Under the pieces are notes generated by a model. It worked only from the letters and a program-made list of their open reading frames with translations, ran no database searches and had not been told where the DNA came from. Position numbers and translations under genes: made by a program. A stretch of DNA of 64,000 bases from Treponema sp. (lineage in GTDB: Bacteria; Spirochaetota; Spirochaetia; Treponematales; Treponemataceae), in NCBI GenBank assembly GCA_016286365.1, contig JAEESN010000003.1:124001-188000 (forward strand), in the 5' to 3' direction. Each line of letters begins with the position of its first letter. Positions within the stretch are counted from its first letter, which is position 1. This document shows, piece after piece, positions 1 to 12,704 of the stretch.

Positions 1-503
1 TTAGAATTCATTTCGCTGATGATTTTTTTGGCTTCCGTAAGTTTTTTATCTATTTTTTTATGCTCTTTTTTATTCGGAACAATCACAAATTCTTCATCAT
101 CATACAAAAACTTTCCGTCTTTAATTTCTATCTGATTTGCATCAAAAACCTGAATATCAGCATTTTCATCAAAGGCTTTCCAGTCAATAAAATCAAGGGA
201 ATATTCTTTTATATTGATTTTTACAATACCATTTTCCAGAGGATTTCCTTCGTAAGTTCCCCTGCAGTACCAGGTATTACGCATGATATCCTTGGTTTTA
301 TCCTTTAAAAAGCTTCTTTCCACATCACGGATAGTTACAACAGGCTCTTTAAGATTAAATTCAACTTCTACTTCTTCGCCAATTACGCGTAAAAGCCAGT
401 CAGACTGAGTAACATTCTTATAAACAACAGTTTTATCTGCACAGGAAACAAAAAATAAAGCGCAAATCAGAAAAACCGGAATCAGTTTGAGCTTTTTAGT
501 CAT
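1..503 (-). CDS. Lipoprotein, 3' end outside the window
   Basis: The reading frame is open from the ATG at 503 down to base 1 with no stop, so about 167 residues are visible and the C-terminus is missing. The protein starts with a Lys-rich n-region, a hydrophobic stretch and the lipobox FVSC at about residues 18-21, so it should be a lipid-anchored envelope protein. The mature part is rich in Lys, Glu and Asp and I recognise no domain in it. Its ATG overlaps the hydA stop codon (ATGACTAA), which suggests translational coupling to the hydrogenase operon. Nothing in the sequence shows a role in hydrogen metabolism. Confidence 0.75.
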   Translation of the reverse strand, partial: MTKKLKLIPVFLICALFFVSCADKTVVYKNVTQSDWLLRVIGEEVEVEFNLKEPVVTIRDVERSFLKDKTKDIMRNTWYCRGTYEGNPLENGIVKINIKEYSLDFIDWKAFDENADIQVFDANQIEIKDGKFLYDDEEFVIVPNKKEHKKIDKKLTEAKKIISEMNS

Positions 504-2235
504 TACTGTATTCATCCTTTGCTTCGTATTTTGTATGTAAAAGTTCATGTGACTTTTCTCCAAGAGGTTTTCCAAGGAAATCATCATAAATCTTTTTAAT
601 TTCAGGATTGTTATGCGACTGTCTGATTGTTGATTTTTCATCGTCGGTATACAAAGCCTTAGTTCTGGCCTGGCGGATTTCGTCTGTTACACCATAAGGC
701 TGACCACCTCCACCAATACAACCACCACGACATGCCATAACTTCTATAAAATGATAGCTTGGCTCTTTTCCGGCAGCAAGCTCACGGCGTACAGTTTCAA
801 GAACACCATCAACTTTTCCAATCTGATGAATTACCATGATGCGGAGAGTTTTTCCACCAAGAGTTACTTCTGCAAGTTTTGTTCCGGCTAGACCACGCAC
901 ATCCTTATATTCAATTGGACCAAGTTCTTTCTTTTCGGTTAAGAAATATGCTGTACGAACGGCTGCTTCCATTACACCACCGGTAACACCAAAGATTGTA
1001 CCTGCTCCCGAATATGTTCCCATGATGCTGTCGGCCTTATCGTCTGCAATATTTGCAAAATCAATTCCGGCTTCTTTTAAAAGCATTGCAAGTTCTCTTG
1101 TTGTTAAAACCTGATCATAGTTTTTAGCGCCGTCTCTTGTGCTTTCGTAGAGTTTTGCAGTACAAGGCATTATAGAAACATTATAGATTTCTTCCGGTTT
1201 AAGATTATTTTCCTGTGCAAAATAAGTCTTTATCATTGCACCCTGCATTTCCTGTGGAGATTTACATGAAGAAAGATGAGGGATTAAATCAGGATATTTT
1301 TTCTCACAGTAATCTACCCAGCCAGGACAACAGCTTGTAAACATTGGAAGAGGTTTCCCGCTCTTGATTCTTTCCAGAAGCTCGTTTCCTTCTTCCATGA
1401 TTGTAAGGTCTGCGGCAAAGTTTGTATCGAATACGTATTTAAAACCAATTGCACGAAGTGCTGCGTAAAGCTTACCTGTTGTTAAAGTTCCAGGCTCCAT
1501 TCCAAATTCTTCACCGATTGCGGCACGAACAGCAGGAGCAATTGAAACAACAGAAGTAAGATTTTTATCTGCAAGCTTGTCGAACACTTTTCTGATCGGA
1601 TTACGGATTGTAATTGCTCCAACCGGACAATGAACGGCACACTGACCGCATTTAATACATGGTGAATGAGCTAAATCTACACCGGCAACAGGACCGATTA
1701 CAGTTTTATCTCCACGGTTTACGTATTCCATTGCATAAACGCCCTGCATTTCCTGACATGCAGTAACACAACGTCCGCAGCTTATACATTTCTTGCGGTT
1801 TAATACTATTTCCGGATAAGATTCGTCCAGTGGAAGATCGCGGTAAATCTTATCAAAAGGATTGTCGCGGATTCCAAACTGAGCGGCGAGTGCCTGCAGT
1901 TCGCAGTTCTGGTTGCGCGCACATTTAAGACAGTTGTCCGGGTGGCTCGAAAGGATGAGCTCGAGGACGGTTCTGCGCGCCTTATACAAATCCTGGTCGT
2001 TTGTTACGATGTTCATTCCGGGGGTTACGGCGGTGCAGCAGGCACGAGTCATTCTTGCACGACCTGTTCTAGGGTCTACGTTTTTTACAACACAGATTCC
2101 GCACGAAGCCCATGGTTTTAAATCATCACAATAACACAAAGTAGGAATTTTAAATCCTGCGCTCTGTGCAGCCTTAAGGATTGTGGTTCCTTCTTCAACT
2201 TCTATCTCTCTATTATTTATAGTTAATTTTACCAT
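496..2235 (-). CDS. hydA: [FeFe]-hydrogenase catalytic subunit HydA
   Basis: Catalytic subunit of a multimeric [FeFe]-hydrogenase, interconverting protons and H2. In order it has an N-terminal plant-type 2Fe-2S ferredoxin domain (Cys set beginning CYC..SCGIC), a His-Cys3 4Fe-4S site (HPDNCLKCARNQNC), two 4Fe-4S motifs (CISCGRCVTAC and CIKCGQCAVHC), then the H-cluster motifs TSCCPGW (near residue 302), MPCTAK and MACRGGCIGGGGQP, and a small-subunit-like tail. It is cytoplasmic. I start it at the ATG at 2235, because GGAG lies 8 bases upstream; an ATG 18 bases earlier is also in frame. It follows hydB closely and is last of the three subunits. Together with HydB and HydC it fits the trimeric, often electron-bifurcating type that couples NADH and ferredoxin oxidation; bifurcation itself is inferred. 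Confidence 0.95.
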   Translation of the reverse strand: MVKLTINNREIEVEEGTTILKAAQSAGFKIPTLCYCDDLKPWASCGICVVKNVDPRTGRARMTRACCTAVTPGMNIVTNDQDLYKARRTVLELILSSHPDNCLKCARNQNCELQALAAQFGIRDNPFDKIYRDLPLDESYPEIVLNRKKCISCGRCVTACQEMQGVYAMEYVNRGDKTVIGPVAGVDLAHSPCIKCGQCAVHCPVGAITIRNPIRKVFDKLADKNLTSVVSIAPAVRAAIGEEFGMEPGTLTTGKLYAALRAIGFKYVFDTNFAADLTIMEEGNELLERIKSGKPLPMFTSCCPGWVDYCEKKYPDLIPHLSSCKSPQEMQGAMIKTYFAQENNLKPEEIYNVSIMPCTAKLYESTRDGAKNYDQVLTTRELAMLLKEAGIDFANIADDKADSIMGTYSGAGTIFGVTGGVMEAAVRTAYFLTEKKELGPIEYKDVRGLAGTKLAEVTLGGKTLRIMVIHQIGKVDGVLETVRRELAAGKEPSYHFIEVMACRGGCIGGGGQPYGVTDEIRQARTKALYTDDEKSTIRQSHNNPEIKKIYDDFLGKPLGEKSHELLHTKYEAKDEYSND

Positions 2236-2257
2236 TTGTCCAACTCCATTCAAAATC

Positions 2258-4123
2258 CTAGCGTTTTTCTATTGCACTGAATCTACAGGTTTCTGCGCAG
2301 GCACCACATTTAAGACAGCGGGTAGGATCTATGCTGTGCTTCTGTTTAATTGTTCCGGAAATACATCCGACAGGACAACGGCGGGCACAGGCACCACAAC
2401 CAATACATTTATCTGTAATCACGTAGTTCAGTAAATCTTTACACTTACCGGCTACACATTTCTTTTCGTTTACGTGCTGTTCGTATTCTGAACGGAACTT
2501 CTGTAAAGTAGAAAGGGTTGGGTTTGGAGCTGACTGTCCAAGGGCACACAACGAAGAACACTTCATTGCAGAGCCGATGTCCTGAAGCTTCTGTAAATCT
2601 TCCATTGTTCCCTGTCCCTTCGAAATCTTTTCAAGAAGGTTGAGCATCTGTCTTGTACCGATTCGGCATGGAGAACATTTTCCGCACGATTCATCAACAC
2701 AGAATTCCATATAGAATTTAGCGATATCTACAACACAGTCATCTTCGTCCATAACAATCATACCACCCGAACCCATCATGGAACCAAGCTTTATGAGAGA
2801 GCCAAAATCGATCGGTGTGTCGAGTTCAGATTCAGAAATAATACCGCCCGAAGGACCACCGGTCTGAACTCCTTTAAATTTCTTTCCGTTTTTACATCCG
2901 CCACCAATATCAAAAATTATTTCGCGGAGGGTTGTTCCCATTGGAACTTCTACAAGACCGGAGTTATTGATTTTTCCTGTAAGGGCAAAAACCTTTGTTC
3001 CCTTAGAATCTTCATCACCAATAGAAGCAAACCATTCTGAACCTTTAAGGATGATTACAGGAATGTTTGCCCAGGTTTCTACGTTGTTGATTACTGTAGG
3101 TTTTCCCCACAATCCGCTTTGAGCAGGGAAAGGAGGTTTTGGTGTTGGCATACCGCGTTTTCCTTCGATAGAACGAAGAAGTGCAGTCTCTTCACCACAT
3201 ACAAATGCTCCCGCTCCAAGACGAATCTCTATATCAAAATTAAAATCACTGCCTAAAATATTTTTTCCAAGGAAGCCCTTTTCGCGAGCCTGTTCAATCG
3301 CAATTTCGAGTCTGTGAACGGCAAGCGGATATTCAGCGCGGATATAAACAAATCCCTTCTGAGCACCGATTGCGCGACCACATATACACATTGCTTCGAG
3401 TACTGAATGAGGATCTCCTTCGATAGTAGAACGATCCATGTATGCACCAGGGTCACCTTCGTCGGCATTACAGACAACGTATTTTATATCGCCCGGAGCT
3501 TTTGCACCCGCTTCCCACTTAAGACCTGTAGGGAATCCGGCTCCACCTCGGCCACGCAATCCTGATTTTTTAAGCTCTTCGATTACGTCTTCAGGCTTCA
3601 TTTCGAAAAGAACTTTTTCCAGCGCCTGATATCCCTGGCGGCCGATATATTCATCAATATTTTCCGGATTGATTACACCACAGTTTCTTAAAACAATACG
3701 AAGCTGCTTTTTATAGAAAGGAATTTCCTCTACGCCATTAACCTTTTTAGCATTAGGATCATAAAGAAGATGATTTACTTCCTTTCCGTTTACAAGATGC
3801 TCTTCTACTATCTCTTTTACATCATCCGGCTTTACGTTTACATAAAAAGAATTTTCCGGCATGACTTTTACAATCGGGCCTTTTTCACAGAAACCAAAAC
3901 ATCCGGTTTTTACAACAGTGATTCTGTCTTCAAGTCCATGCTCTTTAATGCCCGCAATCAGATTTTCATAAATTTTTGGAGAATCAGATGATTCACAGGC
4001 AGTACCACCGCAGACAAGTACAGTTTTTTTAGAAGTTTCACGTACTCTTTTTCCTTCCGAAGCACGAATTTCCATTTCGTCTTTCATGCTTTCATATATT
4101 TTATGCAGTTCTTCTCGTGTCAT
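2258..4123 (-). CDS. hydB: Hydrogenase NADH-binding subunit HydB (NuoF-like)
   Basis: Flavin/NAD-binding subunit of the hydrogenase, homologous to NuoF of complex I. The 621 residues comprise an N-terminal thioredoxin-like 2Fe-2S domain (CGGTAC...CFGFC), the NADH-binding glycine loop (GLRGRGGAGFPTG), the FMN-site segment (GAGAFVCGEETALL), the SCGKCSPCR 4Fe-4S motif, and a C-terminal ferredoxin pair (CIGCGACARRC and CLKCGACAETC). This extended form is typical of HydB rather than respiratory NuoF. It sits 3 bases after hydC and about 20 bases before hydA, so the three form one operon. In bifurcating enzymes of this family the HydBC module takes electrons from NADH; that function is transferred from the family. 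Confidence 0.95.
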   Translation of the reverse strand: MTREELHKIYESMKDEMEIRASEGKRVRETSKKTVLVCGGTACESSDSPKIYENLIAGIKEHGLEDRITVVKTGCFGFCEKGPIVKVMPENSFYVNVKPDDVKEIVEEHLVNGKEVNHLLYDPNAKKVNGVEEIPFYKKQLRIVLRNCGVINPENIDEYIGRQGYQALEKVLFEMKPEDVIEELKKSGLRGRGGAGFPTGLKWEAGAKAPGDIKYVVCNADEGDPGAYMDRSTIEGDPHSVLEAMCICGRAIGAQKGFVYIRAEYPLAVHRLEIAIEQAREKGFLGKNILGSDFNFDIEIRLGAGAFVCGEETALLRSIEGKRGMPTPKPPFPAQSGLWGKPTVINNVETWANIPVIILKGSEWFASIGDEDSKGTKVFALTGKINNSGLVEVPMGTTLREIIFDIGGGCKNGKKFKGVQTGGPSGGIISESELDTPIDFGSLIKLGSMMGSGGMIVMDEDDCVVDIAKFYMEFCVDESCGKCSPCRIGTRQMLNLLEKISKGQGTMEDLQKLQDIGSAMKCSSLCALGQSAPNPTLSTLQKFRSEYEQHVNEKKCVAGKCKDLLNYVITDKCIGCGACARRCPVGCISGTIKQKHSIDPTRCLKCGACAETCRFSAIEKR

Positions 4124-4126
4124 CTT

Positions 4127-4612
4127 TTAATCCTTATTTCTATATTTATCAAGAATAGTCTTAATTTGAGCTGTAGTTACTTTTCCAAAAACTTCGCCAT
4201 TAACACTCACAACAGGAGCAAGACCACAACAACCAATACAGCGAACCGGTTCAACAGAAAACAATCCGTCTTCCGAAGTAATTTCCCCATCCTTTAATGC
4301 TAAAAGACGTCTTGTTTCGTCCAAAAGATTCTGCCCACCCTTAAGATAACAGGCAGTTCCAAGACAAACCGAAATCTGATTTTTTCCCGGCTTTTTTGTT
4401 TTAAAGAAATGATAGAATGAAACAACACCATGAATGCGTGCAAGCGGAAGCCCCGTAATCTTTGCTACTTCTGCAGCCGCTTCGTTCGAAATGTATCCCT
4501 GTTCCTGCTGGATTTTATGCAGAATCATGATGAGATTACCCGGTTTATTTTTCCATTCTTCAACAAAAGCCAAAAGCTCTGCCGAAAAAACAGACTTTCC
4601 CGATTTAGCCAT
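4127..4612 (-). CDS. hydC: Hydrogenase subunit HydC (NuoE-like)
   Basis: Small thioredoxin-like 2Fe-2S subunit, homologous to NuoE, which partners HydB. The 161 residues have the usual helical N-terminus followed by the four cluster cysteines arranged as CLGTAC and, about 35 residues later, CIGCC. The length is normal for the family. It is the first gene of the hydCBA operon, preceded by a GAGG ribosome-binding site and a good housekeeping promoter. Identification is secure from the cysteine pattern and the neighbours. Confidence 0.95.
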   Translation of the reverse strand: MAKSGKSVFSAELLAFVEEWKNKPGNLIMILHKIQQEQGYISNEAAAEVAKITGLPLARIHGVVSFYHFFKTKKPGKNQISVCLGTACYLKGGQNLLDETRRLLALKDGEITSEDGLFSVEPVRCIGCCGLAPVVSVNGEVFGKVTTAQIKTILDKYRNKD

Positions 4613-4659
4613 ATATGTACCTCTTACCTTATGTAACGTGAATGATTAATAGATTTTCT

Positions 4660-4688
4660 ATTATACTGTACAAACCACGTTTATACAA
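4660..4688 (-). promoter_or_regulatory. Sigma-70-type promoter of the hydCBA operon
   Basis: On the minus strand there is a perfect -10 box TATAAT (4660-4665), a 17-base spacer and a partial -35 box TTGTAT (4683-4688). The predicted leader is about 40 bases and contains the hydC ribosome-binding site. No Rex-type operator is apparent. Confidence 0.7.
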
Positions 4689-4713
4689 ATGGCATGGGGG
4701 GAGAAATGTTTAT

Positions 4714-6396
4714 TTAATATGAATAGATAAAATTGTAAAAGATATTTCCTGTATATCCATAATTCTTTAACAAAAATACTGATTGATTATCTATCTTTAT
4801 ATTATCAAACAATACCATACTCCATGGAAGAACTTCCCTTATTTCTGATTCATTATAGACTTTCGGAAGTTGTAGATTGATTTCAGGCATATTACAAAAG
4901 TATTCTACATATTCTTCTGTAACTGGATCTTTTTGATAATTTATTTTACCCGATTCAATACGGCATAAATTTATTTCTTCTACAAACTCTGTAAATAATT
5001 CTTCTATTGGTAATCCATAAATTTTTCCAATATTCTCCCAACCAGTATCCTTAGAATTAATTAATTCCTTCAAGAACTTAATTCCACCGCAGTCTTTTAT
5101 TTCTATAGGATTATAATTATCCCAGGACATACCACCTTTTTTCCAAAATAGCCAGGATAAAAATAGACACATTGCACCCCTTTGTCCAGCAGAATCATTT
5201 TGTCCAAAGGCATTTTCTTTGCAAAAAGAATAATCCAATGTATTTTCTAAATAATATCTTATAAAATCTACATTTCCCCCACTTATTCCATAACCACATA
5301 AATTTTCACTCAAATGACTTAATCCTTCATCTATGAAAATTTCTTCCTGGAGTACATTTTGTTCGCCATTTAATATTCTCTTATAGGTTTTACTATTGAA
5401 TGTTATGGCATGTGTAATTTCATGAGCCATCGTAGCTGTAATAGAATCTAAACTATAACTACTTTCCTTATCATCTGGAATTGCAAAATAAACTATATCC
5501 ATTTCATTTGAATAATTATTATCTTCATTTTTAAACAAATCAGAAGGATTAAAAAATCCGATCGCCTGTTTTTCCTGATTAATCGTTGGAGAAAAAACAA
5601 ATGCTATTTTTCCATCTTCATCAATATCTGCCCAATTGCCCCATATTTTTGTTATTCTTGGAAAAATAATTGTTTCAAATCTTTTTGTTACTTCTTGTAT
5701 TTTTTCTATACCAAAATCTCTTTCTACAGGAATCCAAACAGTACAGTTCTGACTACTTTTTATCATTTCAAATTCTATTTCATGAGGAACATTATTCTGG
5801 TCATCTGTTTTTATTATATAAAAATTCTTCTTTTCCCCTTCTGTATATTTTCTGACCTTATTAGACCTGGAATCATTTATCATGATTCTTTTCTTACTCT
5901 TTATATTTGTATTAATCCTAAATAATTCGCTACCGTTTATATCACAATTTGATTCCTGTATTTTTTGAATTTCTTTTCCCTTTCCTTCACAAGAAATAAG
6001 ATATGGATAATAGTTACCAGGTTTAAGCTTCACTTCTTTATTACTTTCATTTAATAAATTAACTATGCTTTCGCCATATCTATAATTTCGTTTCTTAACA
6101 AAGATTTGTACTTTTTTTCTATATCCATTTATCAAACAAAATATTTCATGTTCTCCTTCTGAAAGGAAAACATTCAATCCATTTTTATTTCCAAGAAAGC
6201 CGTCTTTTGTTGAATACCAATTAATATTTTCTGTGTCAACATTTGTAGTAAAATGTATTTTATTATCTTCATAATAAGTCCAGCCACTTACAGGAGAGAC
6301 AATCCTTATTACATCATCCTGATTAATTTCTTTCTGACATGAAATCATATTAAAAATGAGAAATAACAATATGAGAAAATTAAATTGCTTTTTCAT
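4714..6396 (-). CDS. Lipoprotein with zinc metalloprotease signature
   Basis: A 560-residue predicted lipoprotein: hydrophobic leader, lipobox MISC at about residues 17-20. The N-terminal ~120 residues look like beta-sandwich (Ig-like) repeats. The C-terminal half holds HEITH at residues 325-329 and DEGLSH with a possible third zinc ligand at Glu357, an HExxH...E arrangement reminiscent of hyicolysin-type (M30-like) or gluzincin peptidases. A secreted or surface zinc peptidase is therefore likely, though the substrate is unknown and the family assignment is only a resemblance. It is the last gene of a five-gene minus-strand run and overlaps the preceding gene by 4 bases. It is clearly more AT-rich than the hydrogenase genes beside it. 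Confidence 0.7.
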   Translation of the reverse strand: MKKQFNFLILLFLIFNMISCQKEINQDDVIRIVSPVSGWTYYEDNKIHFTTNVDTENINWYSTKDGFLGNKNGLNVFLSEGEHEIFCLINGYRKKVQIFVKKRNYRYGESIVNLLNESNKEVKLKPGNYYPYLISCEGKGKEIQKIQESNCDINGSELFRINTNIKSKKRIMINDSRSNKVRKYTEGEKKNFYIIKTDDQNNVPHEIEFEMIKSSQNCTVWIPVERDFGIEKIQEVTKRFETIIFPRITKIWGNWADIDEDGKIAFVFSPTINQEKQAIGFFNPSDLFKNEDNNYSNEMDIVYFAIPDDKESSYSLDSITATMAHEITHAITFNSKTYKRILNGEQNVLQEEIFIDEGLSHLSENLCGYGISGGNVDFIRYYLENTLDYSFCKENAFGQNDSAGQRGAMCLFLSWLFWKKGGMSWDNYNPIEIKDCGGIKFLKELINSKDTGWENIGKIYGLPIEELFTEFVEEINLCRIESGKINYQKDPVTEEYVEYFCNMPEINLQLPKVYNESEIREVLPWSMVLFDNIKIDNQSVFLLKNYGYTGNIFYNFIYSY

Positions 6397-7079
6397 TGTG
6401 TTGTAAAACTGTAATTACTACTTTCTATTACGTTTATAGAATAATAATCCGATGTTTCGTAAAAAATATCTCCAGATATTCTTTCTGCAAGAATTTTGAT
6501 GTAATAAGTATTTCCAGACTTTAAAATATTTTCTGGAATAAATACCGTCGTGTTTTCTGTAGATATACTATATAAAGTTTCAAATGTATTTTTTATCTCA
6601 ATAAGATAAACACAATCATCTTCCATTGCAGTCCATGATACCTGCATGGGACAAGAAGAATCTATCTTTTGTCCCTGCAAAACAGAATTCCCTTTTGAAT
6701 CACATATCATAGAAATAATAGGTTTTTCGGATATTACTTTATGAGGAATTTCATAAACTCTTGGTTTTGTAAATAAGGAAGAATCTATTCTAACCTCTAT
6801 AAGTTCTGCTATTAAAGAAAAATTCGCTTCATAACAACACAGCTCTGGATTATAAGAAACGGTATTATAAATACCGTTCTTATTTCTTACCAGAATATAT
6901 GCTCCATCTACAGTTTTTCCATATATGTCTTCCAAACTTACACTTATATGTACTGTCTGCGAATTAGATGATTCAAGACTTATTCTAACCCTTACGTTAT
7001 TTTCTATTTCTTGTGAACAAGATATGAATGACACTAGTAAAATAAAACAACAAAAAAGTATATGAATTCTATTTTTCAT
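6393..7079 (-). CDS. Lipoprotein with fibronectin III-like segment
   Basis: A 228-residue lipoprotein with a signal peptide ending in the lipobox FISC (about residues 18-21). The rest looks all-beta. The C-terminal ~100 residues, with a W-T-x-x-E-D-D start and Tyr-rich closing strands, look like a single fibronectin type III-like module; this is a judgement from pattern only. Its start codon overlaps the stop of the PQQ-type gene by one base, and its own stop overlaps the start of the protease-like gene by 4, so translation is probably coupled. No enzyme motif is visible; a structural or accessory role in the same export set is likely. Confidence 0.65.
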   Translation of the reverse strand: MKNRIHILFCCFILLVSFISCSQEIENNVRVRISLESSNSQTVHISVSLEDIYGKTVDGAYILVRNKNGIYNTVSYNPELCCYEANFSLIAELIEVRIDSSLFTKPRVYEIPHKVISEKPIISMICDSKGNSVLQGQKIDSSCPMQVSWTAMEDDCVYLIEIKNTFETLYSISTENTTVFIPENILKSGNTYYIKILAERISGDIFYETSDYYSINVIESSNYSFTTQ

Positions 7080-8392
7080 TATTCTGCCTTTATTGCTACT
7101 AGATCGATATGATCCCTCTTATTTATAAATGTTAGTAAAATATTTTTATATTGATAGATACAATCCATACCAGTCCCTCTATAATCTTTATTTACTCCAA
7201 TCAATTTACCAGTCTGAGATTCATACACCCTTAGATATTTATCTCCTGGCACATAAATTTTATCATTATATACACAAGGGACTACATCATTCGAAATAGA
7301 AAACATATACATATCTCCCCAGACATATGAACCATCTTCTGCATTTATACAGATAAGATTTTTATAATTCTCCTGCGGAAATCCTGTTAACGAACCTGAG
7401 CCGGGAAATTCTTCATTTGTGAAATAAAACTTACCGTCATAATAAAGAATGTCTTTTATATGGGTTTCTGTTCTTATTATGATTTCATTTTTATAATCTT
7501 CTTCTGTCTGAAGTATATGCCACAATTCCTGCCCTGTTTTCTTATCGTAACAATACCGTCCGTTTCCCAACAAATAAATTTTATCCCCTACTATCTGAAT
7601 AGTTCCCTGTGCCAGAAAATGTTCTATGGTAATTTCATTTACCCAAACCTTAGTGTTCGTTTCGAGATTCCATGCGACAAAATATGTTACACCTTCATTT
7701 TTGTGTTGATCGGGATTGTATGTAAGAAAATACAGAATACCATTTTCTAATACCATCGAAACTATAGCTTCTCCATTAAATTCATCACAAAGATACTCAA
7801 CTTCGTAAATTTCAGCCGTACAGTCAATAATATCCTGTAGGTTCGCTTTTACGACATTTTTCTTTTGTAAGACCTTTTCTCCATTTTCGTTTTTAATTCT
7901 AATTGCCCCGTTTTCCCAATATAAATTTCCCTTATATTCATACACAGGACCTTCTACAAGATGACGGACTTTCTGTTTTTTTATTAAAGATAAATCATTT
8001 TTATCAAGAATTATCATATCAAAATCTTCTGTCCCTATAATAAGTTTATCTTTGATTATTAAAAATTTTGAACTTTCCCTGCCTATAAACTCTTGTGATT
8101 CAATTATTTCTGAAGGATTGTCTAAATTTATTTTTATAATTTGAAACTTCCTAATATCTGTTGTATAACGAAAATCTCCTTTTATCGTATAAAAAAAATT
8201 ATCTTCAAGAATGGATACTTCCTTTGGACGCCCAATTAAGTTTACATTCCATAATGGCTCAACATCTAGTTCTGGTTCTTCAAGAACAACCGTTTTATGT
8301 TTTTCTTTTTTATTTGTTACCCAGAACTGACAAGAGGTTTCAAAAATACTCAACGCAATAATAAACAGAATAATAATAATTCTTTTCATCAT
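7079..8392 (-). CDS. PQQ-type beta-propeller lipoprotein
   Basis: A 437-residue lipoprotein with signal peptide and lipobox ETSC (about residues 18-21). Several blade-like repeats with the pattern Asp/Asn-x-x-x-G/N-x-x-x-W are visible, for example DKKTGQELW, NAEDGSYVW and NLETNTKVW, characteristic of PQQ-like/BamB-like propellers. No cofactor-binding set typical of quinoprotein dehydrogenases is seen, so a binding or scaffold role is more likely. GGAG lies 8 bases before the first of two adjacent ATG codons, supporting the start at 8392. It follows the hydrolase gene by 19 bases. Confidence 0.7.
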   Translation of the reverse strand: MMKRIIIILFIIALSIFETSCQFWVTNKKEKHKTVVLEEPELDVEPLWNVNLIGRPKEVSILEDNFFYTIKGDFRYTTDIRKFQIIKINLDNPSEIIESQEFIGRESSKFLIIKDKLIIGTEDFDMIILDKNDLSLIKKQKVRHLVEGPVYEYKGNLYWENGAIRIKNENGEKVLQKKNVVKANLQDIIDCTAEIYEVEYLCDEFNGEAIVSMVLENGILYFLTYNPDQHKNEGVTYFVAWNLETNTKVWVNEITIEHFLAQGTIQIVGDKIYLLGNGRYCYDKKTGQELWHILQTEEDYKNEIIIRTETHIKDILYYDGKFYFTNEEFPGSGSLTGFPQENYKNLICINAEDGSYVWGDMYMFSISNDVVPCVYNDKIYVPGDKYLRVYESQTGKLIGVNKDYRGTGMDCIYQYKNILLTFINKRDHIDLVAIKAE

Positions 8393-8411
8393 GCTTATAT
8401 CTCCTGTTTAA

Positions 8412-9857
8412 TTAATCTAAAGTCCTTGCTTTTACAGTTGTTTTCTCTAATAATTCAATTATTTTTCCCTTTACAAAATCATTTTCTGTTGGATCTATCT
8501 GACCATGATTATATTCTGGGAAAGGTTCATAACCTAAAGATGTATCTGTCAAAACTTTTGAATGAGCTTCTCTTGAATAAAACTGGCTCTCTTTTGCTAT
8601 AAAGCAGTCATTTTCATCAGAACCAATAAGCTCATAAATTTCTCCATCAAGATTACTTACCCATTCGGATGCACGTCTTGCATCTTTTGCATAATTAATT
8701 GAATTAGTAAGAAGTCCAACAAGAAGAGCTGTTTTTATAGTATGAACCATTTCTGCTGTATCAAAAAGTTCTTTTAAAGTTGCAACAGTACTATCTCTAA
8801 TCTCTTTTGCTGCTATATCATCGTCGAATAAACTACACATATCATTATTTAAGCCAACTATGTAAGCTACTGGTATATCTTCATCCATTTTTAGTTTATC
8901 TTCTTTATATTCTGTGTAAACCTTATAATGTGGATAATATACATTTGTAAGATATGGTATTTTAAACCATCCAAGTTTATAAAATCTCCATTCTACAGAC
9001 CATTCTCCTCCATCTTCAACTTTTTTTGTTATTGTTTTAATATCTGCTACATTTTCTGCAATAAAATTACTGTAAGGCATCATATCTCGAATTTCTTTCA
9101 TTTCATCAGGATTTACTTCATCCATACCAAGAGATATATAGTGTCTGATATTTTCATTAGGAATTAAGGACAAACACAACTTTACTACTTCATTTTTATC
9201 AGATAGATTCGTATCTGTAATCCATCCTGCTCCGAAAATACCAATATCTACAAGAATTCCTACTATCTGTGAATTATGTATTACTGAATTAAGACCATTA
9301 TACAAAATATTCACATCTTCCATTACCCTTGATTTTAATACACCAAATCCACCTTCAAGCATCTTTATTCCTTTATCAATTCCAGAAACTGTTATTACAG
9401 CACCAAGATGTTCATAAGCATTTTCATATTTTGCCTTCATTTCTGGATCAGTTTCTGATAGAGCCTTTTGTTTAATAACATTTGCATAAGCTAAAGCTCT
9501 TAATCCTCCCTGGCTATGGCCTACAACTGCATAATCCGCTGTATTACCTACCCAGCTTTCTGCCATAACTTTCGCAGACTCATCCATTATTTCCTGTACT
9601 TCTATTCCTGGTCGTGGATTATAATCTTTTAATGGAAATCCTGTAAAATTTATTACATTTTCCTGTACTCCACTTCCATTACTCTTAGAAAGAACTTTTT
9701 TATTTTCTGTCCCCTCTGTTTTCTCTGTAACTCCTGCTATTCTTATAGGAATTACCCTTTCATCACTACCAGAAGCTGCTTGAGCAAAAATACTTCCACT
9801 ATAAATTGTTAATAATACTACTGCTATAATTCTTTTTAATATTTTATTCTTTTTCAT
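8412..9857 (-). CDS. Secreted alpha/beta hydrolase (lipase/esterase-like)
   Basis: A 481-residue protein with an ordinary cleavable signal peptide (hydrophobic core ending in SIFAQA-A; no lipobox Cys). The nucleophile elbow GHSQGG places the catalytic Ser at residue 115, preceded by a hydrophobic strand as in lipases and PGAP1-like hydrolases. Candidate Asp and His residues lie in the C-terminal half but cannot be assigned with confidence. A role in cleaving ester or lipid substrates outside the cytoplasm is likely. The gene starts one base after the preceding lipoprotein gene, and three lipoprotein genes follow it. Confidence 0.7.
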   Translation of the reverse strand: MKKNKILKRIIAVVLLTIYSGSIFAQAASGSDERVIPIRIAGVTEKTEGTENKKVLSKSNGSGVQENVINFTGFPLKDYNPRPGIEVQEIMDESAKVMAESWVGNTADYAVVGHSQGGLRALAYANVIKQKALSETDPEMKAKYENAYEHLGAVITVSGIDKGIKMLEGGFGVLKSRVMEDVNILYNGLNSVIHNSQIVGILVDIGIFGAGWITDTNLSDKNEVVKLCLSLIPNENIRHYISLGMDEVNPDEMKEIRDMMPYSNFIAENVADIKTITKKVEDGGEWSVEWRFYKLGWFKIPYLTNVYYPHYKVYTEYKEDKLKMDEDIPVAYIVGLNNDMCSLFDDDIAAKEIRDSTVATLKELFDTAEMVHTIKTALLVGLLTNSINYAKDARRASEWVSNLDGEIYELIGSDENDCFIAKESQFYSREAHSKVLTDTSLGYEPFPEYNHGQIDPTENDFVKGKIIELLEKTTVKARTLD

Positions 9858-9858
9858 T

Positions 9859-10842
9859 TTATCTGTCTCCTTCTAATAATCTGAATTCAGTTCTATCACA
9901 ATCATTAATAATAATATTTTCATAAACTTCTATAATTGTTTCAACATTGCTTAAATCAGCTGGATTACCATATCTCATATTATTTACATCAAAAGCTAAC
10001 CCTTTTGCCTTAGCTTTTTCATATTCTTCCTTTGATGCTTCCGGAATTTCATCTATTGAATTAAAATATTCAACATTTTCAAGGCCAGAAAGCATTTCTG
10101 TCATTTTTGTATCTATGATAGAAATTTGTCCAATTTTTATCATTTCACCATTATATTCTTCATAGACAGGCATAATTGTTGTAGTAATAGTATTTCCTTC
10201 CAAATCTACATCTATCATCTCTATCTCTTTCAATAATTCATCTTTTAAATCAAACTTTATTTTTGTAGATATTCTACCGTAATTTTCCTGTTCTATAAAA
10301 TAATTACATGGTAAAGATACTGTCATTACCTCTTTATGTTCTTCGGTTATATCAAAATTAAGTTTCTCTGAGATACTTTTAATCTTATCAAGATTAATTC
10401 TACCGTAAATTAAATTACCAGTAAGATAATCAAGATCTTCATTCTTGCTTTTTTCTGAAATACGCATTTCAACTTTACCAGTAGATTTATCTGCTATAAT
10501 TATCTCAGAATTACTTTTTAATACCATCTTTTCACGATCACCGAATTTTCCTTTTGGAAAATCTATTCTTGCAAGAATCTCGTCTCCTACCTTTTTAGTC
10601 ATTAACCGATATTTATTTGAAACAGAAGCATTTTTATTTACTCTGCTATTTTTAGAATAAACTGTAACATCAGCTTTAAAACTTTCCATCTCTTTTGCCT
10701 GGGAACTTTCCCAAGAAATAGTTACAGGGTGTTCTTTAAAGATTTTCATTTCTTCATTTACATTTTTATTCATCCCATTTTCACATGATATTAAGAATAA
10801 AATTCCTAATACAAGACCAATTCCATGTTTCACACGTTTCAT
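9859..10842 (-). CDS. Lipoprotein of unknown function, first in a five-gene run
   Basis: A 327-residue lipoprotein with signal peptide and lipobox LISC (about residues 17-20). The mature protein is Lys/Glu-rich with alternating beta strands, and resembles outer-membrane lipoprotein carrier-like folds only in general composition. I do not recognise the family. A strong AAGGAG ribosome-binding site precedes the ATG. As leader gene of the run it is next to the secreted hydrolase, so a chaperone or specificity partner for that enzyme is one possibility, but this is inference from position only. Confidence 0.6.
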   Translation of the reverse strand: MKRVKHGIGLVLGILFLISCENGMNKNVNEEMKIFKEHPVTISWESSQAKEMESFKADVTVYSKNSRVNKNASVSNKYRLMTKKVGDEILARIDFPKGKFGDREKMVLKSNSEIIIADKSTGKVEMRISEKSKNEDLDYLTGNLIYGRINLDKIKSISEKLNFDITEEHKEVMTVSLPCNYFIEQENYGRISTKIKFDLKDELLKEIEMIDVDLEGNTITTTIMPVYEEYNGEMIKIGQISIIDTKMTEMLSGLENVEYFNSIDEIPEASKEEYEKAKAKGLAFDVNNMRYGNPADLSNVETIIEVYENIIINDCDRTEFRLLEGDR

Positions 10843-10940
10843 TTTTCATCTCCTTTTTTTAAACTCTACTTTATCCGAGTTTTTTTTAATCTAACCGTAT
10901 GGTATAAGCAGAATTTCCATTTGTAAACCCGTTAAACGAA

Positions 10941-10960
10941 AAAAGAACTAAAGTTCTTTT
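10941..10960. promoter_or_regulatory. 20-bp palindrome between divergent genes, candidate operator
   Basis: Perfect 8-bp arms AAAAGAAC and GTTCTTTT flank TAAA. It lies between the divergent lipoprotein-hydrolase operon and the membrane LuxR-type gene. Its core has the form GAAC-N4-GTTC, the same as the Bacillus-type LexA box, but no LexA is seen here, so which protein binds is unknown. A weak hairpin terminator is the alternative. Confidence 0.45.
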
Positions 10961-10997
10961 ATTTAATTTTTCTCTTTTACTATTGACATTTTTCCCT

Positions 10998-11003
10998 TAT
11001 AAT
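10998..11003 (+). promoter_or_regulatory. TATAAT box of a probable leaderless transcript (LuxR-type gene)
   Basis: A perfect TATAAT ends 6 bases before the ATG at 11010, so transcription should begin at or next to the start codon. No ribosome-binding site is present. The hexamer 17 bases upstream (TTTTAC) is a poor -35 box. Confidence 0.55.
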
Positions 11004-11009
11004 TAACTT

Positions 11010-11762
11010 ATGATTAAAAAACAACATCTCAAAATGTTTCAAAAAGTAATTCCGCTGGTTTGCGCAGTAATTTTTGGGTTTTTTCTTGTCACTTTTTTAA
11101 TTCATTCCGAAAAAACGCCTCTAAACATTGTGATTAATATCTGGCTGGGACTTTCAACGCTTTTTTCTGTGTTTTTATTCTTTTTTCCAAAGGCATTTTC
11201 GGTATACGGGATTTTTTCTTTCCTTTATTCGTTTCTTTTCTGCTTTTTCAATGAATATTATTTACTGATGATCTTCAGTTATGTGATTACGATTGTATTT
11301 TTGTGGAACCAGGGCTTCTTTAAAAACAATAAGATAATCAAACTTCCCTTAAGTATCCTTTATTTTGGGATTCTTGTTGGAATAAGGCTCTATCTTTTCT
11401 CCGAAAGCTTTTTACAGCACGTCATCATGTTCCTTCCGTTCGTTATTGTAACGCTTGTTCTTGGACTTTTTGCAGTAAACTCTTATACACTTTCTGTAGG
11501 TCAGAATTCAGAAAAAGTTATTCATGTTGATGAACTTCCACTTACAGATAGACAAAAAGAAATATTAATACAGATGATTTTAGGAAAAGCATACAAAGAA
11601 TATGCGCTGGAAAACAATGTTTCTGAATCGGTTATAAAAAAAGATGCAACAGAAGTTTTTAAATACTACAACGTCTGTAACAAATATGCATTTTTAGCAA
11701 AATTTTCACACTTTACTTTTATTTATAAAGGAAACAATTATCTTCCGGCAACCCATAACTAA
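11010..11762 (+). CDS. Membrane protein with C-terminal LuxR-type DNA-binding domain
   Basis: The 250 residues contain about five or six hydrophobic segments between residues 10 and 170, then a cytoplasmic tail whose last ~65 residues match the LuxR/GerE helix-turn-helix pattern (LTDRQKEILIQMILGKAYKE... followed by ...VSESVIKKDATEVFKYYNV). This suggests a membrane-bound transcription regulator, perhaps sensing an envelope signal directly. It is transcribed away from the lipoprotein-hydrolase operon across a region with a 20-bp palindrome, so control of that operon is plausible. It has no Shine-Dalgarno sequence and is probably translated from a leaderless mRNA. Its 3' end overlaps recR by 4 bases in convergent orientation. 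Confidence 0.7.
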   Translation: MIKKQHLKMFQKVIPLVCAVIFGFFLVTFLIHSEKTPLNIVINIWLGLSTLFSVFLFFFPKAFSVYGIFSFLYSFLFCFFNEYYLLMIFSYVITIVFLWNQGFFKNNKIIKLPLSILYFGILVGIRLYLFSESFLQHVIMFLPFVIVTLVLGLFAVNSYTLSVGQNSEKVIHVDELPLTDRQKEILIQMILGKAYKEYALENNVSESVIKKDATEVFKYYNVCNKYAFLAKFSHFTFIYKGNNYLPATHN

Positions 11763-12358
11763 ATCTGACTTCTTCCGCGGAAGCTTAAAGACAGTGTTCG
11801 TTTGTCTATGTATTCAAGGTCCCCGCCAACCGGGATTCCAGTTGCAAGACGGGTTACTTTTGGAGAAGGTGAAAGATTCATCTCTGTAATCATCTTATTT
11901 ATATATAAAGCAGTTGTGTCACCTTCGACCGTTGGATTAGTAGCAATGATTACTTCTTCGATTTTTTCGTTTTTGATTCTGTTTAATAACTGCGGGATTA
12001 AAAGCTGCGAAGGACCAATTCCGTCGAGTGGTTTTATAAGACCGCCAAGTACATGATAAAGTCCTTTATATTCTCCGTACGCTTCGATTGTACTTACATC
12101 CTGCGATTCTTCTACAACACAAATCTGATTTTTTTCTCTTGCAGGATTTGAACACACCGGACAGATTTCTTCTTCGGTCCATGCCCCGCAAATCTTACAT
12201 GGTTTTATTTTATCCTGAAGCTGACTAAGGTTTCGTGCAAAATTCTGAACATAGGTTATATCCTGTTTTAAAAGCCAGTTCACCATGCGAAGCGCACTTT
12301 TTTTCCCGATTCCCGGTAAGCGCGAAAAATTATTTGTCAGATCGTCGTAAATACTCAT
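11759..12358 (-). CDS. recR: Recombination protein RecR
   Basis: RecR acts with RecO/RecF in loading RecA onto gapped DNA. The 199 residues show a helix-hairpin-helix near the N-terminus (FSRLPGIGKKSALRM), a zinc finger with four cysteines (CKICG...CPVC, about residues 57-72), and a Toprim domain beginning ICVVEESQD and including the GGLI(K)PLDGIGP segment. Length is normal. It is the last gene of dnaX-ybaB-recR, a very common bacterial order, and has a GGTGG ribosome-binding site. Confidence 0.95.
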   Translation of the reverse strand: MSIYDDLTNNFSRLPGIGKKSALRMVNWLLKQDITYVQNFARNLSQLQDKIKPCKICGAWTEEEICPVCSNPAREKNQICVVEESQDVSTIEAYGEYKGLYHVLGGLIKPLDGIGPSQLLIPQLLNRIKNEKIEEVIIATNPTVEGDTTALYINKMITEMNLSPSPKVTRLATGIPVGGDLEYIDKRTLSLSFRGRSQI

Positions 12359-12392
12359 TATTCCACCCGTTTTCCCATTAATGATTTAACGA

Positions 12393-12704
12393 TTATAAAC
12401 CAAACTGACTCAAATCAACTCCGCCAAGAATTGATGATGATTTTTCTTTTATCTGCTCCTGTACATTTTCTACCGCATTTCTGTGTGCAGCAACAATCAA
12501 ATCTTCGAGCATTTTTACATCGCGGTTATCTACGCAGATTGGATCAAGCTTAATACCCATCATCTCGAACTTTCCATTAAGAGTTACAGTAACCATTTTT
12601 CCGCCAGAATTACCTTCTGCCCTTATTTCTGCAAGTTCCCTCTGCAATCTTTCTGACTGTTCTTTTATTGCACCCGCATTTTTTATCAAATCAAATGGAT
12701 TCAT
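12393..12704 (-). CDS. ybaB: YbaB/EbfC nucleoid-associated protein
   Basis: Small 103-residue dimeric DNA-binding protein of the YbaB/EbfC family, thought to act in nucleoid organisation. The typical start MNPFDLIKNAGAIKEQ, the central beta segment with VTVTLNGKFEMMGIKLDP and a helical C-terminus are present. It lies between dnaX and recR with short gaps, the expected operon position. EbfC of the spirochaete Borrelia is known to bind DNA broadly. Confidence 0.93.
   Translation of the reverse strand: MNPFDLIKNAGAIKEQSERLQRELAEIRAEGNSGGKMVTVTLNGKFEMMGIKLDPICVDNRDVKMLEDLIVAAHRNAVENVQEQIKEKSSSILGGVDLSQFGL

Follow-up and report, generated by a model that had tools for sequence, protein, structure and literature searches.

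A conserved exported-protein operon, probably imported beside a resident membrane LuxR-type regulator in Treponema, and its predicted palindromic operator

The window, the whole 64,000-nucleotide stretch of rumen Treponema DNA analysed here, comes from a host genome of 2.68 Mb (G000); among named genomes, a Treponema MAG from yak rumen is the closest to it. It holds a five-gene operon for exported proteins, divergent from g6, a gene for a membrane protein with a LuxR-type tail. On balance we consider it probable that this exported-enzyme operon was imported beside a resident regulator with six transmembrane (TM) segments, which activates it through a GAACYNNRGTTC palindrome. The operon would have arrived by horizontal transfer and settled beside g6, which may sense a membrane or extracytoplasmic signal. 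The cytoplasmic helix-turn-helix (HTH) of g6 would bind the palindrome, some 23 bp ahead of the -35 box, and activate the operon from there. At the cell surface, the exported enzymes would then break down proteins and probably also lipids or esters. In the literature library searched, we found no description of such an operon, of an M30 operon or of a membrane LuxR regulator in Treponema.

The operon and its predicted products

In the ORF list, the five genes lie on the minus strand between window positions 4714 and 10842, with 4-bp, 1-bp, 19-bp and 1-bp junctions, in the order g5, g4, g3, g2, g1 counted from the promoter (Table 1). An earlier note on this DNA had described a tight exported-protein run facing a membrane LuxR-type gene, and both the packing and the divergent g6 were confirmed. 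It had also counted four lipoproteins and one secreted hydrolase. Inspection located lipobox cysteines in g1, g2, g3 and g5, a signal peptide together with the GHSQGG motif in g4, and in g1 the HEITH...DEG signature that the note had pointed out. Its PQQ-type propeller label for g3 agrees with a Pfam PQQ_2 match that is present at a sub-threshold score, and its fibronectin-like label found no support in the domain library.

Table 1. Features of the operon locus in window coordinates
Feature	Position	Strand	Description	Basis
g5	9859-10842	-	327-aa predicted lipoprotein, first operon gene, no known family	ORF; 8 aligned copies conserved
g4	8412-9857	-	481-aa predicted exported alpha/beta serine hydrolase	GHSQGG; weak Palm_thioest, FSH1 and Lipase_3 matches
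g3	7079-8392	-	437-aa predicted lipoprotein, PQQ_2/BamB-like beta-propeller	PQQ_2, E=3e-5
g2	6393-7079	-	228-aa predicted lipoprotein, no known family	
g1	4714-6396	-	560-aa predicted lipoprotein, M30-like (lugdulysin) HExxH metalloprotease	PDB 7bb8, E=2.8e-15
g6	11010-11762	+	250-aa membrane protein, ~6 TM, LuxR-type HTH tail; putative resident regulator	Divergent from operon
Candidate operator GAACTAAAGTTC	10945-10956		Core of the 20-bp palindrome	
Predicted operon promoter	10899-10927	-	TTTACA-N17-TACCAT	-35 begins 23 bp from operator centre
Predicted g6 promoter	10976-11003	+	TTTACT-N16-TATAAT	Sequence prediction
Block missing from sibling contig L012	4721-11008		Replaced there by 25 bp	

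The product of g1 is, as judged from its sequence, a lugdulysin-like (M30-like) metalloprotease. Its profile matches lugdulysin over 239 positions including HExxH, and residues H325, E326 and H329 are invariant in all nine aligned copies. The Pfam Peptidase_M30 model matched one of nine g1 members, under its cut-off (E=0.028). We use the label M30-like because the lugdulysin match spans HExxH, yet the Pfam model stays under its cut-off. Searches for g1 homologues returned one weak Deinococcus match among plasmids and none among phages. In g4, a G-x-S-x-G elbow and conserved Asp and His residues fit an alpha/beta serine hydrolase, and S115, D417 and H451, invariant in nine aligned sequences, form a candidate triad. 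The window copy stays below the cut-off of every family model; g4 is predicted to be an alpha/beta hydrolase and is perhaps lipid-cutting. Single-sequence structure models of g4 and g5 had low pLDDT (32 and 33, respectively). No significant Pfam or PDB match was obtained for g5, and nothing convincing matched g2.

Distribution and probable origin of the operon

Within the genus, 14 of 200 genomes contained g1; relatives of g4 were detected in six further genomes of the phylum Spirochaetota, from other genera, families and classes. Neighbourhoods in the genus keep the order g5-g4-(g3)-g2-g1, as do five of the six outside it, the sixth (G237) having just a truncated g1-like ORF; several operon copies run into a contig end or are missing one gene. 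In some relatives g3 is missing, and a gene for a small lipoprotein separates g5 from g4. The g3 gene is triplicated in G526, two operon copies are adjacent in G042, and copies lie on several contigs in G034. The earlier note had proposed looking for the five-gene order and the regulator in other genomes: the order was largely kept, and a membrane LuxR-type gene lay near the operon in 13 of the 20 genomes, although a genome has only about 1-8 genes of this kind; its orientation was divergent, co-directional or convergent. In G535 this neighbour belongs to a different type, whose LuxR HTH is more typical. The operon is a rare but conserved set of predicted exported proteins.

Two copies had unusual upstream regions. 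In G034, a g5 copy is immediately preceded by 10.4 perfect repeats of the octamer GAAGTATT (L014:3020-3102), possibly a phase-variable promoter. In G175 (L092:5872-7231), the operon-linked regulator is apparently split by a frameshift, and three TTACNNNNGTAA palindromes precede g5.

Base composition was compared within the window (52 ORFs), where the A+T-richness seen in the earlier note was borne out. The GC content of the operon is 0.294, against 0.384 for the remaining window, and its five genes rank lowest of all in GC3 (0.145-0.240; others mean 0.320, sd 0.034). The GC3 of g6, 0.311, is host-like. In other genomes the operon is slightly AT-richer than its flanks at 15 of 18 loci, but its GC tracks the host (0.28-0.45), which makes AT-richness by itself a weak argument. 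A contig of a sibling genome, L012, aligns at 97% to window positions 1-4720 and 11009-12508, on either side of the missing block, and keeps a 95% identical g6 copy although the block is absent. The empty site and the deviant composition together favour import of the operon beside a resident regulator; that this was a gain here rather than a loss in the sibling rests on composition. The host probably acquired the operon by horizontal transfer, and docking of the imported operon beside a resident regulator is our best reading of the locus. No target-site duplication was found at the block, the longest direct repeat between its ends being 8 bp and away from the junctions, and no recombinase among its ORFs, so that transposon or phage cargo was dropped as an explanation.

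Alternatively, operon and regulator could be one inherited module, from which the sibling deleted the operon and kept an orphan regulator. Such a history would fit the recurrence of membrane-LuxR neighbours near the operon across the phylum and an indel that left no target-site duplication. However, operon GC3 lies about 4 sd under that of the other genes while g6 is native, and codivergence of regulator and operon is unclear (Mantel r=0.19, p=0.08). After the sibling's copy, moreover, g6 has its closest relatives among paralogues that lie next to other genes (49-53% identity). We regard common inheritance as rather unlikely. The lack of clear codivergence and the closeness of g6 to non-operon paralogues suggest that the kind of partner is conserved and not the individual partner. 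These relationships, with the native GC3 of g6 and its presence in the sibling without the operon, also led us to drop the idea of a private regulator. What the earlier note had called an acquired exported module beside a membrane LuxR gene is supported by the recurring order, the deviant composition and the empty site; that the regulator was the module's own gained no support.

The candidate operator and promoter geometry

The 20-bp palindrome that the earlier note had placed between g5 and g6 is present at 10941-10960 (AAAAGAACTAAAGTTCTTTT, 9-bp arms). The promoter DNA as a whole (10838-11008) has no repeat elsewhere in the genome. GAACYNNRGTTC occurs 17 times in the host genome, always inside ORFs save for the window site and a pair at C19, and these intergenic occurrences are found only at two membrane-LuxR promoters. 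The C19 pair lies upstream of a g6 paralogue divergent from a transporter cluster. By inspection, this region (L099:3962-9592) encodes a double-glycine-leader-like peptide, a C39-type ABC transporter, and HlyD-like and aspartyl-protease-like proteins.

Promoters of operon copies contain 12-bp palindromes of the form xyAC-N4-GTy'x', often paired 17-21 bp apart; the window operon has one site and several relatives have two. Palindromes were found in 8 of 17 operon promoters, compared with 0.76 in shuffles, and tandem pairs in four, compared with none in 300 shuffles. The nine promoters without the motif are mainly those where the HTH of the neighbour differs or no such regulator is near. Some of the tested loci are those on which the motif was first noticed, so genome-wide counts are the cleaner test. 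Tandem sites gave 13 matches in 196 genomes, and the reversed control gave none. Ten of these have a membrane-LuxR gene within the fetched 3-kb stretch (an overlapping G177 pair counted as two), and two overlapping G158 matches have none within a 2.2-kb stretch. The remaining one is in G152, which we take to be the genome of the sibling; it precedes an outer-membrane-protein-like gene and is separated from the g6 of that genome by about 5 kb. Among 44 regulators gathered regardless of sites, those with a KKD/KKE-type helix carry the site more often (7/13 vs 2/31; Fisher p=0.001), by a pattern that misassigns a few. The palindrome is probably the operator of the regulator, as predicted from these comparisons.

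Spacing to the promoter was nearly constant on the target side. In 8 of 11 target promoters, the distance between the site centre and the best -35 is 22-24 bp, for which a uniform null gives p ~6e-9. The exact arrangement GAACYNNRGTTC-N17-TTTACA is found at this operon and at the sibling outer-membrane gene, and G034 and G167 have it next to g6-like paralogues. Five other matches of this looser search are, as far as we looked, away from such regulators. The sibling gene (L012:4385-5041) encodes an outer-membrane-protein-like product, was not observed at the matching position in G000, and has a promoter 72% similar, with two operator sites.

Some tandem sites precede non-coding sequence. At L156:1490-1745, L159:1263-1540 and L162:1273-1540, they lead into a promoter and then a conserved stretch that has no long ORF, lies between ABC-transporter and membrane-LuxR genes and ends in a terminator-like hairpin (CCTAGGA ... 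AAAGCGTTG). This stretch had no match in Rfam and is a candidate small RNA. At L134:9357-9640 and L135:7956-8240, tandem sites and TTTACA are followed by a conserved non-coding stretch, with a terminator-like hairpin, before a pyrK/pyrD-like gene.

Two other roles for the palindromes were weighed against activation. They could be short bidirectional terminator hairpins rather than operators, as their A-rich and T-rich flanks would allow, and three tandem sites at one syntenic position do lie between convergent genes, before an apparent short RNA. Even these three, however, show a TTGA-type -35 at the same distance; most sites are upstream of promoters at the fixed 23 bp, the loci share the GAAC/GTTC sequence, and the sites cluster at membrane-LuxR genes. 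A terminator function is highly improbable. That g6 represses the operon, or regulates its own gene only, is improbable to a lesser degree. The window site is centred 25 bp from the predicted -35 box of g6 itself, as either role would suggest, but it is the target side on which spacing is fixed, distances on the regulator side varying from 6 to 92 bp. A site near -58, as here, is typical of activators. Activation of the operon by g6 through the palindrome remains the reading that we prefer.

The regulator family and comparison with known systems

Hydropathy gives g6 about six TM segments in a polytopic N-terminal membrane domain. Its C-terminus is weakly LuxR/GerE-like: this protein alone gave matches below cut-offs to GerE (E=0.09) and to CsgD (E=0.001). 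GerE matches were seen in five of six g6-family members with E up to 0.5, the best (0.016) again below cut-off. The divergent membrane protein with a LuxR-type tail described in the earlier note was recovered, with weak GerE/CsgD similarity. With a profile of the family (A4), 124 of 196 genomes gave matches, about 1-8 in each. We suggest, with a little less than even confidence, that short membrane LuxR activators share a tandem GAACYNNRGTTC operator at a fixed promoter distance and switch on exported proteins, peptides and small RNAs, and that a travelling operon carries this operator and plugs into a resident regulator. An operator that travels with the operon while the regulator is resident would be a simple model for wiring imported genes into host control. 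The predicted operator and promoter layout is testable for the membrane-bound regulators of this large and uncharacterised Treponema family, and the analysis names a conserved exported-enzyme operon for which we found no previous description.

The nearest parallel for the regulator is found in Coriobacteriia, where DadR, HcdR and CadR are LuxR-type regulators with 10-12 TM segments, and where Eggerthella TM-LuxR proteins are activators with metabolic targets (PMC9734109). The g6 family resembles them in its polytopic membrane domain and putative C-terminal LuxR-type HTH, in its many paralogues per genome and in being encoded beside target genes, activation having been shown for the Coriobacteriia proteins (PMC9734109). 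It differs in its spirochaete hosts, diverged HTH, exported-protein neighbours and predicted operator, and was not placed with the Coriobacteriia family because its members have about 5-6 TM segments rather than 10-12. Among the operon products, g1 is like lugdulysin and hyicolysin (peptidase family M30) in its profile match including HExxH; unlike them, it is a predicted lipoprotein with an extra N-terminal region, is encoded in a five-gene operon, and scores under the Pfam M30 cut-off. The window g4, in contrast to secreted alpha/beta hydrolases and lipases with family models, falls under every family cut-off, and shares with these enzymes the GHSQGG nucleophile elbow and the invariant Asp and His.
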